Shown one piece after another: positions 38,095-40,790 of a stretch of 64,000 nucleotides of DNA; the stretch's first letter is position 1; every line of letters begins with the position of its first letter. The notes below the pieces were generated by a model. The model made no database searches and was not told the DNA's origin. It worked only from the letters and a program-made list of their open reading frames with translations. A program made the position numbers and the translations under genes. The stretch spans positions 186,001 through 250,000 of the forward strand of contig NZ_CAJYVQ010000002.1 in the NCBI RefSeq assembly GCF_913778665.1, given 5' to 3'. The stretch is from an uncultured Stenotrophomonas sp. (GTDB lineage Bacteria; Pseudomonadota; Gammaproteobacteria; Xanthomonadales; Xanthomonadaceae).

Positions 38095-38295
38095 CTGAAA
38101 CTCCGGTTGCATGGGCTGTGATCGCGCCATTCTACGCCTGTGCCGGGGGTAGGGTTTTTCCTACATCACGTCGGGTATTTGGCTGGCTTACGGAAATGTG
38201 GGAAACCGATAGGCTGTGCGCATGTGGTGACGGACACTGTTTCGACCGACGGGATTGCCGGTCGGGGCAGCCAGAACCACAAGGAGATACACGTC

Positions 38296-38622
38296 GTGCC
38301 TTGGTTTGTCGTGTCAACGGCACTGGTGCTGGTGATGGGGTTCGCAGAGGCGCATGCCACCGGACCGATCGACATCAACCACGCCGATGCACAGGCGCTG
38401 CAGCAGGGATTGACGATGGTCGGAGCCGCCAAGGCCGAGGCGATCGTCGAGCACCGGCGCAGACACGGCCCGTTTCATCGCGTCGAGGACCTGACGCAGG
38501 TGAAGGGGATAGGGAAAGCAATCGTCGAACGGAATCGACAGCGGATCACCGTAGGCAACAGGCTGTTGCCGGCGGATCCGGTACCCGGATCGGTACCGGT
38601 ACGAACCGTACCCAGGCGCTGA
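38296..38622 (+). CDS. ComEA-like helix-hairpin-helix protein
   Basis: 108 residues starting at GTG 38,296, with a strong AAGGAG 9 bases upstream. A short signal peptide or anchor (WFVVSTALVLVMGFAEAHA) is followed by two helix-hairpin-helix motifs typical of ComEA DNA receptors: DINHADAQALQQGLTMVGAA and DLTQVKGIGKAIVERNRQRI. This suggests periplasmic DNA binding in natural transformation. Its 3' end contains palindromes that may belong to the promoter of the downstream RNA. Confidence 0.87.
   Translation: MPWFVVSTALVLVMGFAEAHATGPIDINHADAQALQQGLTMVGAAKAEAIVEHRRRHGPFHRVEDLTQVKGIGKAIVERNRQRITVGNRLLPADPVPGSVPVRTVPRR
38554..38570. promoter_or_regulatory. Perfect inverted repeat upstream of the candidate CsrA-sponge RNA
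   Basis: GGCAACAG-G-CTGTTGCC, an 8-bp perfect dyad inside the helix-hairpin-helix gene, about 60-70 bp before the likely RNA start. In Pseudomonas and E. coli the activator GacA/UvrY binds an 18-bp palindrome upstream of such RNAs. The sequence here differs from that consensus, so assignment is only a guess. Confidence 0.35.
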
Positions 38623-38624
38623 CA

Positions 38625-38896
38625 GCAGGAATCGTCGGAACCGGCAGGAGGCTGGTTCACTGGACACGGGCAGGATGGCCGTGACCACCGACCGCCGCAG
38701 GATGCGGCACCAATCACCAGGATGGTGGCATCACAGACCTGTGGAAGGGGCTGAGATACAAACAGGACAGACGCGGCCGCGTGCAGGATGCAACGCTACC
38801 CCCACAGCGCAGGATGCGAGGGGGCGGCAGCAGGCCGACAGGGACGTAACGATTGCCCGGTACGACACATGGCTGTGTCGCCGGGCAGTTTCATTT
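38625..38896 (+). ncRNA. Candidate CsrA/RsmA-sequestering small RNA (CsrB/RsmZ-like)
   Basis: The region has no convincing reading frame but repeats CAGGATG five times (38,671; 38,698; 38,718; 38,784; 38,810). Each copy sits in an inverted repeat that places AGGAT in the loop: CACGG...CCGTG (38,665-38,683), GCCGC/GCGGC (38,694-38,708), CACC/GGTG (38,715-38,727), GCGTGC/GCA-A-CGC (38,779-38,796), and CCCCC..CGC/GCG.GGGGG (38,799-38,824). A further 7-bp stem at 38,639-38,657 shows AGGAG. GGA also occurs in single-stranded links, such as ACAGGACA at 38,762. CsrA prefers (A)CARGGAUG with GGA in a hairpin loop. The 3' end is a strong terminator at 38,855-38,896. The 5' end is not resolved; no clear -10/-35 is seen, so the start given is approximate. 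Confidence 0.75.
38855..38896 (+). terminator. Intrinsic terminator of the candidate sRNA
   Basis: GCCCGG (38,855-38,860), CGACACA (38,863-38,869), loop TGGC, TGTGTCG (38,874-38,880), CCGGGC (38,881-38,886), then AGTTTCATTT. A 13-bp stem with a 2-base bulge and a U-rich tail on the plus strand only. It lies 79 bp before the L,D-transpeptidase start. Confidence 0.85.
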
Positions 38897-38974: not shown

Positions 38975-40048
38975 ATGTTTCCGCATCGCCCCACAACCCT
39001 GATGCTCGGCCTTGTACTGGTCCTGCCGCTGCTGGCCCACGCGGCTGCACCGCCGGCCGGAACGCCTGCCGCTGCAAGCGCTGTCGACGTGCGCGGGCCG
39101 ACCGACCTCAAGCCGGGCGAATACCTGTGGCATCCGGAAATCTCGCCGAGTGGCCCGATCGTGCTGGTGGTCAGCCTGGACGAGCAGCGTGCCTATGTGT
39201 ACCGCAACGGCATCGCCATCGGCCTGACCACGATCAGCTCGGGCAAGGCCGGGCACGAGACGCCGACCGGCGTGTTCACCATCCTGCAGAAGGACAAGGA
39301 CCACAAGTCCAACCTCTACAACAGCGCACCGATGCCCTACATGCAGCGGCTGACCTGGGACGGCATCGCCCTGCACGGTGGCAGCCTGCCCGGGCACCCG
39401 GCCTCGCACGGCTGCGTGCGACTGCCGCAGGCCTTCGCGCAGAAGCTGTTCAGCGAAACCCAGCGTGGCGATACCGTGGTCGTGGCCGATGCCAAGAGCT
39501 CGCCGATGACCCTGGCCTATCCGTCGGTGCTGGCGCCGGTGAACGCGCGCGGGCAGGCGCTGCCGGAAACCGAGGGAGCGGCTACCCAGGCCTGGTGGAA
39601 CGACAGTGCGGCCCCGGCCGGGCAGGTTGGCATCCTGGTCAGCCTGCGTGACCAGCGCCTGTACGTGCTGCGCGATGGCGTGATGATCGGCGAGTCGCCG
39701 TTGAAGGCCGACGCGCTGCCGGCCTTTCAGGGCACCACCCTGTTCGTGATGGGGCAGGGTTACAGCGACACCCCCAGCCCGCTGGACGCGAACCAGCGCC
39801 TGCACCAGTGGACGGCCTACCCGCTGCTGGGCCAGGACCGGGCCCAGGCCACGCCGGACCTGCTGGCCACGCCCTCGCTGCCGATGGCGCTGCCGGCCGA
39901 TTTCGCCCGCCAGCTGTACCAGGTGCTGGTGCCGGGCACGACCCTGCTGGTGACCTCGCTGCCGGCGGTCCGCCCAAGCCCGGCTGAATCCGGAATGCAG
40001 CCGGTCTTGGAATCCGAGCCGCCAGGGTCCACCCTCAAGAGCAACTGA
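38975..40048 (+). CDS. L,D-transpeptidase (YkuD domain) family protein
   Basis: 357 residues from ATG 38,975, with AAAGGA upstream. A signal peptide (TLMLGLVLVLPLLAHAAAPP) is followed by a YkuD domain with catalytic HGGSLPGHPASHGCVRLP, in which His and Cys are the active residues (Cys near 149). Such enzymes cross-link peptidoglycan or attach lipoproteins. A second half of about 150 residues (starting GQVGILVSLRDQRLYVLRDG) repeats the opening strand pattern of the domain without a catalytic Cys. Followed 16 bp later by another peptidoglycan-type gene. Confidence 0.88.
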   Translation: MFPHRPTTLMLGLVLVLPLLAHAAAPPAGTPAAASAVDVRGPTDLKPGEYLWHPEISPSGPIVLVVSLDEQRAYVYRNGIAIGLTTISSGKAGHETPTGVFTILQKDKDHKSNLYNSAPMPYMQRLTWDGIALHGGSLPGHPASHGCVRLPQAFAQKLFSETQRGDTVVVADAKSSPMTLAYPSVLAPVNARGQALPETEGAATQAWWNDSAAPAGQVGILVSLRDQRLYVLRDGVMIGESPLKADALPAFQGTTLFVMGQGYSDTPSPLDANQRLHQWTAYPLLGQDRAQATPDLLATPSLPMALPADFARQLYQVLVPGTTLLVTSLPAVRPSPAESGMQPVLESEPPGSTLKSN

Positions 40049-40064
40049 CGCCCTCGTTGTGCCC

Positions 40065-40790
40065 ATGACTGCATCCCGCCTGTGCCGGCTGGCCGCGTTC
40101 GGCCTGCTGGCGACCTCGGCCAGCGCCCCGGCGCTGGCACAGACGCCCGCCCTCGCCACCTCTGCCGATGATCTGGCTGCCCTGCTGTCGCGCAGCGCGC
40201 CCAAGGCCGACCGCCACGTGCTGCAACTGGCGGCGCATGCCATGCGCTGCGCACTGCAACGGCCGGAGCTGGGCATCAACAGTGATCGCCTCAGCGTGAT
40301 CGACTATTCGCGGCCCTCCACCGAGCCGCGGCTGTGGGTGTTCGACTTGGCCCACCAGCGGCTGCTGTTCGAGGAATGGGTGGCGCATGGCCGCAACAGC
40401 GGCGAGAACCACACCGAGCATTTTTCCAACCGCGACGGCAGTTTCATGTCCAGCCTGGGCGCGTTCACCGCACAGGAGACCTACATGGGTGGCAACGGCT
40501 ACTCGCTGCGCCTGGCCGGGCTGGAACCGGGCTTCAACGACCGTGCGCGCGAACGCGCGATCGTCATCCACGGCGCGCCTTATGTGAACCCGGCGACCGC
40601 GCAGCTGCAGGGACGGCTGGGCCGCAGCCTGGGCTGCCCGGCGGTGCGCCTGTCGGTGGCCAAACCTCTCATCGACGCGTTGCGCGGCGGCACGATGGTG
40701 TTCGCGTATTACCCGGACCAGGACTGGCTGAAGCATTCACAGTTGCTGGGCGGTGAGTGCGGCGGGCAGGGCACCCTCGCCACGCGGTGA
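40065..40790 (+). CDS. Murein L,D-transpeptidase catalytic-domain family protein
   Basis: 241 residues from ATG 40,065 (GTG two codons before is possible). A signal peptide (AAFGLLATSASAPALA) is followed by the domain found in a YkuD-like-2 group: LWVFDLAHQRLLFEEWVAHG, FSNRDGSFMSSLGAFTAQETYMG, AIVIHGAPYV and the catalytic GRSLGCPAVRLSV. The His/Cys pair is conserved, so it is probably active in the periplasm. It forms an operon with the preceding gene. Confidence 0.85.
   Translation: MTASRLCRLAAFGLLATSASAPALAQTPALATSADDLAALLSRSAPKADRHVLQLAAHAMRCALQRPELGINSDRLSVIDYSRPSTEPRLWVFDLAHQRLLFEEWVAHGRNSGENHTEHFSNRDGSFMSSLGAFTAQETYMGGNGYSLRLAGLEPGFNDRARERAIVIHGAPYVNPATAQLQGRLGRSLGCPAVRLSVAKPLIDALRGGTMVFAYYPDQDWLKHSQLLGGECGGQGTLATR

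Follow-up and report, generated by a model that had tools for sequence, protein, structure and literature searches.

A predicted CsrA-titrating RNA in the comEA 3' untranslated region of Stenotrophomonas, a probable lengthened orthologue of Xanthomonas RsmU

The comEA locus and its probable 3' untranslated region

The window analysed here is a stretch of 64,000 nucleotides from a Stenotrophomonas contig. At positions 38296..38622 (+ strand) it carries a comEA-like gene with a GTG start, whose product is a helix-hairpin-helix competence protein by its profile scores: 78.8 bits to TIGR00426 (cut-off 53.1) and 63.1 bits to HHH_3 (cut-off 27), with 55.5 bits to the comE model TIGR01259, which is under the cut-off of 152. 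A region of repeats and hairpins begins immediately 3' of the comEA stop codon, and it is ~270 nt from that stop to the end of a terminator-like hairpin. The locus is flanked in the window and in Xanthomonas alike by a divergent M20 peptidase gene upstream and hutD downstream, the latter lying several hundred bp farther away in some Xanthomonas loci. In S. maltophilia-type loci, and also in two with the short form (L044 and L046), the untranslated region (UTR) is followed by one or more L,D-transpeptidase genes; in the window, two such genes (YkuD and YkuD_2) occupy 38975-40790, between the RNA and hutD. In most syntenic loci outside this transpeptidase-neighbour group, only hutD was found downstream. 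The profile matches agree with the initial annotation on the two neighbours, a ComEA-like gene before the element and an L,D-transpeptidase gene after it.

The same annotation had proposed a stand-alone small RNA, and this part of it was not upheld. Positions 38623-38896 make most sense as a 3' UTR belonging to the comEA mRNA, whether or not it is processed, because a consensus scan (itself weak evidence) found no promoter at the RNA, and because the Xanthomonas counterpart depends on the comEA promoter, according to the available part of the report on it (PMC7694677).

Repeats, hairpins and covariation

The heptamer CAGGATG was said to occur five times in ~150 bp, and it does, on the + strand at 38671, 38698, 38718, 38784, and 38810. 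The 64 kb contain 15 copies on the + strand, including these five, and 10 on the - strand; with the other 20 copies as background, the Poisson chance of finding five in 150 bp is ~6e-11 per position. GGA number by itself is not striking, as the 228 nt past the comEA stop contain 12 GGA triplets against a shuffle mean of 7.8, and 65 of 2000 shuffles reach 12. Six of these GGA sit in short loops closed by three Watson-Crick pairs, where dinucleotide shuffles average 0.84 (n=2000) and only one of the 2000 reaches six; among 12,756 overlapping windows on both strands, six GGA hairpins were reached solely over this place. The stem that presents AGGAG includes one G-U pair, and counting it brings the GGA hairpins to seven. 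In the partition function, the GGA triplets are unpaired at 0.67, compared with 0.40 for bases generally.

Alignments A2 (21 sequences) and A3 (13 sequences) were hand-chosen from the 47 distinct sequences of the transpeptidase-neighbour group. Across the 21 S. maltophilia-type sequences, most loops are CAGGA-N-G, the base after GGA and the stems both varying, and CAGGA(T/C/A)G is found in most of the aligned sequences; the more distant L030, L050, and L051 are without the loop of hairpin 2. Unguided, RNAalifold proposed 72 pairs for these 21 sequences, with double-sided changes in 16, whereas the structure described below has double-sided changes in 13 of its 56 pairs, a number reached by none of 500 shuffles. 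That structure pairs 96.1% of cells compared with 32-43% in slid versions, its derivation from one of the 21 aligned sequences favouring the percentage. A second group of 13 sequences follows a similar plan, with double-sided changes in 9 of 75 predicted pairs. The conserved loops and covarying stems that had been anticipated in relatives were therefore found. The single sequence is less telling: its fold is only moderately stable for its composition (z -2.0, 8 of 100 shuffles doing as well) and pairs hairpins 3 and 4 wrongly.

Working from left to right on the + strand, the 5' extension that is characteristic of the S. maltophilia type (38623..38774) contains hairpins 1-5 and lies outside the match to R1, a covariance model whose 21 source sequences are all short forms (from Xanthomonas, from Stenotrophomonas with the short form, and from one further genus), none of them of the S. 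maltophilia type. Hairpin 1 (38638..38658), with an AGGAG loop, is the AACCGGC/GCTGGTT stem already noticed in the initial annotation and shows double changes in four of its eight pairs. Hairpins 2, 3, and 4 all present AGGAT: in the first (38665..38683), four of seven pairs have double changes and 82% of cells are paired; in the second (38694..38708), one of five pairs does; and in the third (38715..38727), the stem is invariant in the 21 sequences and provides no covariation evidence. Hairpin 5 (38730..38757), part of the RNAalifold consensus and without variation, has GGA in a GUGGAA loop, although an alternative stem, CACA/UGUG, would put the GGA outside the loop. The 30 bases at 38724-38753 (GGTGGCATCACAGACCTGTGGAAGGGGCTG) are invariant in 21/21 S. 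maltophilia-type sequences and are steadier than the surrounding hairpins.

The RsmU-homologous core occupies 38775..38892 and corresponds to R1 model positions 1-120. Within it, hairpin 6 (38782..38792; AGGAT loop) shows double changes in one of three pairs, and hairpin 7 (38799..38824) is CGC-AGGAT-GCG set inside a CCCCC/GGGGG stem, with double changes in two of the five outer pairs and none in the three inner ones, which are invariant. The next hairpin, GGC-AGCAG-GCC (38826..38836), presents GGA in its A4 counterparts (an alignment of 21 short forms), and it is followed by the motif GACAGGGACGT (38837..38847), which is common to many members and near the CsrA SELEX consensus ACARGGAUGU. The element ends with a terminator-like hairpin at 38854..38896, seen in the alignment and consensus fold, that has a weak and imperfect T run (GTTTCATTT) and was not listed by a simple terminator scan; it had been described as a 13-bp terminator, but it has 14 pairs with a 2-nt bulge. 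Overall, covariation backs hairpins 1, 2, 3, and 6, the terminator-like hairpin, and, in hairpin 7, the outer stem. It is silent either way on the inner stem of that hairpin and on hairpins 4 and 5, none of which varies and for which constancy is the sole argument. The original description of AGGAT loops on stems of differing sequence is thus confirmed by both shuffle and covariation tests, and the anatomy, the conservation, and the covarying stems all fit its assignment to the CsrA/RsmA-sponge class, which we retain as a prediction.

Relationship to RsmU and to other CsrA-binding RNAs

RsmU (sRX061) of Xanthomonas campestris pv. campestris is processed from the comEA 3' UTR, binds RsmA in vitro and in vivo, and depends both on the comEA promoter and on RsmA, as described in the part of the report available (PMC7694677). 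R1 matches the window at 38775-38892 over all 120 model positions with 76.2 bits (E 7e-20, the calibration being rough). Since the model contains no S. maltophilia-type sequences, this match leads us to equate the 3' half of the element with RsmU by homology, the 5' half (38623-38774) being additional. In 12 of 15 Xanthomonas loci, the 117 nt starting 25 bp past the comEA stop end exactly in the terminator, as published, and in the other three (L116, L093, and L094) the terminator end is shifted by a few nt; these 15 loci are from species other than X. campestris, of which there was no record among the 80 named loci kept. The two RNAs have in common their place in the comEA 3' UTR, their orientation and neighbours, the GGA hairpins, and the homologous core with a terminator-like hairpin at its end. 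They differ in length, RsmU being 117 nt (77 nt without the terminator) and ending ~142 nt from the stop in the published description, whereas the window form is ~270 nt with its extra 5' block. The Xanthomonas processing point, 25 nt past the stop, falls inside hairpin 1 here, and processing, if any, must therefore differ.

The number of potential sites is less clearly different. The window has 12 GGA motifs against the three to four given for RsmU in the accessible part of its description, but by our own count a near Xanthomonas relative has eight within the 117 nt, so the published figure counts fewer. Strict GGA hairpins number six in the window and five, seven, and one in three Xanthomonas loci, where GGA totals are 10 and 10 (the loci with five to seven hairpins) and seven (the locus with one). 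The second long group has 17-18 GGA in the three members counted and 10-11 strict hairpins; over the 15 loci counted, GGA ranges from 6 to 18. The idea that a longer RNA means more sites was dropped because hairpin numbers overlap with those of the Xanthomonas short forms; the UTR of the S. maltophilia type has roughly double the length without a clear gain in GGA hairpins.

Rfam gave no match in the window at curated thresholds, and none at E up to 1 in seven sources carrying other members. Below threshold, CsrB/RsmB (RF00018) has a local match to 38642-38728, in the 5' half, that scores 24.8 bits, the gathering score being 71; the suggested comparison with the CsrB and Rsm models thus left a CsrB-like resemblance without any gathering score being reached. 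The likeness to CsrB/RsmB lies in the CAGGA(U/A/C)G loops, the varied short stems, and the many sites per RNA. In the portion of the literature available, CsrB repeats are given as CAGGA(U/A/C)G and the CsrA SELEX consensus as RUACARGGAUGU (PMC7652899), the core of which is the GACA(A/G)GGA(C/T)GT that many members share. E. coli CsrB itself is encoded by a gene of its own; it contains 22 GGA, and the script used for the comEA loci counts 10 of these as hairpins. RsmX, RsmY, and RsmZ of Pseudomonas are similar in having several unpaired GGA and, from what is available of the source, a palindromic element upstream (PMC2375449); they differ in that the window RNA has no Rfam match and belongs to an mRNA. 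RsmV (RF04320) scored 11.2 bits at the terminator region against a cut-off of 100, which is not a match.

Distribution in the family

Within the genus, 43 of 61 genomes have DNA-level matches to the region. The other 18 all have a ComEA-type protein match, one of which (L048, 37-38% identity) was read as a different helix-hairpin-helix protein; the remaining 17 loci have 7 to 17 GGA in the 300 nt past comEA. At E up to 0.01, R1 matched 67 of the 149 family genomes (63 of the 135 good ones), representing 31 of 54 genera, and it matched the genome of the window once. Positions compared by eye put the match beside comEA in 61 of these 67 genomes (28 of 54 genera); the other six are G105 and G163, in both of which comEA itself was not found, and G177, G108, G069, and G173, all four with weak matches. 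A search at the level of the order gave 18 of 151 genomes, all 18 within the same family.

The authors of the RsmU study state that it is present in Xanthomonas and in no other bacteria, in the part of the report available (PMC7694677). By the homology searches made here, the family is wider than that, and no CsrA-antagonist RNA for the S. maltophilia complex was found in open-licence literature listings. The initial annotation had called the RNA undescribed and perhaps a new family. The published short homologue, as far as its description is available, removes the claim to a new family; the longer S. maltophilia-type form and the range beyond Xanthomonas extend that description.

Several loci depart from the usual arrangement. 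The Pseudoxanthomonas loci L097, L104, L118, L131, L134, L141, and L153, together with L079, have the module or a GACARGGAYGT-like motif at least twice in the comEA 3' UTR. In Thermomonas-type loci, R1 matches lie 3' of hutD (E 0.004-0.07), at 3960-4061 of L102, 3956-4057 of L125, and 3942-4045 of L148, and also in L145 and L133; these elements are small, have between one and three GGA hairpins, finish in a terminator-like GCGGCACAGGGAYGTGCCGC hairpin, and may be relocated or reduced relatives. Within the initial 250 nt of its comEA 3' UTR, locus L091 carries 17 GGA and only one strict hairpin, and single-stranded GGA sites may suffice there.

The upstream palindrome and candidate regulators

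Upstream of comEA, at 38148..38165 (+ strand), lies the palindrome GGTAGGGTTTTTCCTACA, which resembles a GacA/UvrY box. The GacA box of Pseudomonas is TGTAAGN6CTTACA. The window site has 3 mismatches of 12 to that box and its counterparts in relatives bearing a site have 2-3, whereas the E. coli csrB control has a box with one mismatch at -191; moreover, allowing up to three mismatches, the window contains two such sites against 4.6 expected by chance. A palindromic element lies upstream of Gac-controlled Rsm RNAs, in the part of the source available (PMC2375449). The palindrome, TGTAGG-N6-CCTACA in the window, is conserved upstream of comEA, where it takes the form (T/G)GTAGG-N6-CCTACA in different genera, around an AT-rich centre. 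About 54 nt past it, an upstream alignment of 31 loci reveals a conserved -10-like element, GATAggCtg (GATAGGCTGT, 38208..38217, + strand), and if this marks the putative promoter, the palindrome would sit near -65.

The exact core, GTAGGN6CCTAC, is found once in the 4.4-Mb genome of the window and once in each of two Xanthomonas genomes, where the reversed control pattern has 7-9 copies; two further Stenotrophomonas genomes have two and three copies. Family-wide, 101 of 149 genomes have a site, with 0-7 per genome versus 2-16 for the reversed pattern, and the palindrome equals or exceeds its control in a few genomes (for example, 7 versus 6 in G181, and 7 and 7 in G157). Once loci too close to a contig end and those with identical sequence around the end of comEA had been set aside, 153 distinct loci were left, of which the 131 syntenic ones were counted. 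Using our own rule for a sponge (at least two GGA hairpins and six GGA within 250 nt, which L091 fails), the palindrome with at most one mismatch precedes comEA in 104 of the 113 syntenic loci whose UTR has GGA hairpins, compared with 5 of the 18 that lack such a UTR, these being raw locus counts uncorrected for relatedness.

A pure Gac-sponge role for the palindrome would predict that extra copies also precede sponges, but this failed for all 20 extra sites in other genera, picked for AT-rich cores among the non-comEA sites listed: no cluster of GGA hairpins comparable to the comEA one follows any of them, and the best 200 nt in either direction have at most three such hairpins. Such a role was accordingly counted against. 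These extra sites (L209-L228) are GTAGGAAATTTCCTAC-like palindromes near varied genes, among them some read from translations as glnK, ubiK-comM, NRDE/TANGO2-like, and arginase-like, and they possibly represent a small regulon of one regulator.

Of the proteins that would act with the RNA, CsrA is encoded by one gene in the genome, its product being a canonical CsrA that scores 113.9 bits with the equivalog model (cut-off 73). Of 13 genomes examined for csrA, 12 have it, and since several of these lack the sponge, csrA is no predictor of it. The closest relative of UvrY/GacA has 44-45% identity and an NCBIfam score of 223 bits against a cut-off of 280. It is encoded at 1495-2142 of L195 (G000 C2:803400-804044), between genes read as PAP2-type phosphatase and aldolase-like, and more than 100 kb from uvrC, unlike the E. 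coli uvrY-uvrC pair. A UvrY-like regulator is present in 31/31 genomes, a selection that includes both carriers and non-carriers of the sponge, and finding it is therefore uninformative. The likeness of the palindrome to GacA/UvrY boxes is not decisive, given the better fit of the csrB box, the 20 sponge-less copies, and a UvrY relative that is present regardless.

Discussion

We consider it probable that 38623-38896 is the comEA mRNA 3' UTR, a Stenotrophomonas orthologue of RsmU lengthened at its 5' side and predicted to titrate CsrA. Transcription from the comEA promoter would yield the mRNA, probably with the help of an activator bound at the 38148 palindrome; whether still within the mRNA or cut out of it, the UTR would then offer about seven GGA hairpin loops and further single-stranded GGA sites. 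CsrA dimers would bind these, less CsrA would be free, and CsrA-controlled mRNAs would be released, with CsrA in turn protecting the RNA. The anatomy, homology, synteny, covariation, and single csrA gene were obtained here; the steps themselves we infer for Stenotrophomonas cells by analogy, RsmA binding, processing, and dependence on the comEA promoter and on RsmA having been reported for Xanthomonas only, and binding for RsmU rather than the window form, in what is available of that study (PMC7694677). Overlapping site numbers, the CsrB score below its cut-off, the lack of an Rfam match in sources with other members, the place of the Xanthomonas processing point inside hairpin 1, and the weak T run were counted against this explanation. 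In the same report, as far as it is available, RsmU with all four predicted GGA changed still bound RsmA (in a smaller complex) and kept its over-expression effect, and Xanthomonas without RsmU was normal in virulence, HR, and swarming (PMC7694677); both observations argue against a strong sponge role.

The main rival to titration, which we regard as possible but rather unlikely, is that CsrA acts on the 3' UTR in cis to stabilise or otherwise control the comEA mRNA itself, titration being minor. In X. campestris pv. campestris, the comEA message loses stability when RsmA is absent, and strains lacking RsmU showed no phenotype in the assays performed, but RsmU over-expression reproduces the rsmA-mutant phenotype for virulence, HR, and motility, although not for EPS or extracellular enzymes, all in the available part of the report (PMC7694677), and about seven hairpins are many for a single cis site. 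We think it improbable that the RNA is an independent gene of the CsrB/RsmX-Z type, driven by GacA from its own promoter inside or after comEA: the local CsrB-like match, the GacA-box-like palindrome, and the moderately similar UvrY-like regulator would suit such a gene, but the palindrome lies upstream of comEA rather than of the RNA, the consensus scan showed no promoter near the RNA, Rfam scores fall short of the cut-offs, and the Xanthomonas homologue is cut from the comEA mRNA in the published account as available (PMC7694677). Hardly credible is a chance GGA-rich sequence, or a coding N-terminus of the L,D-transpeptidase. GGA number alone is close to that of shuffles, and an open frame does run from 38675 into the transpeptidase gene; against these, loop placement exceeds the shuffles, loops are conserved and stems covary, aligned relatives have 1- and 5-base indels within that frame, and the Xanthomonas loci examined have hutD downstream, with no transpeptidase match found.

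How comEA and its UTR are switched on is a separate matter. The chances seem evenly balanced that the palindrome serves a competence regulator or some other one and that the sponge is merely co-transcribed. The failure of any of the 20 extra palindromes to precede a comEA-like GGA-hairpin cluster fits such a role, as do the genes read as ubiK-comM and others beside some of those copies; the association of the box with sponge loci, uncorrected as it is for relatedness, speaks the other way. It is doubtful, and offered only tentatively, that the comEA mRNA has two functions throughout the Xanthomonadaceae, with its 3' UTR as a general CsrA sponge and the near-unique palindrome as a Gac-type switch, such that the switch would start DNA uptake and free the CsrA regulon together.

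Xanthomonas RsmU was already known from the published work, insofar as it is available; the longer S. maltophilia-type form and the range beyond Xanthomonas are what is added. If the titration reading is correct, a CsrA-binding RNA would occupy the comEA 3' UTR of about half of the sampled Xanthomonadaceae genera, a range that takes in the S. maltophilia complex, which comprises opportunistic pathogens. It would be an uncommon sponge, located in the tail of an mRNA and varying between genera in length, module number, and GGA count, and the work also points to a conserved, nearly unique DNA element before comEA. Expression of a natural-competence gene would thereby be tied to the CsrA switch.
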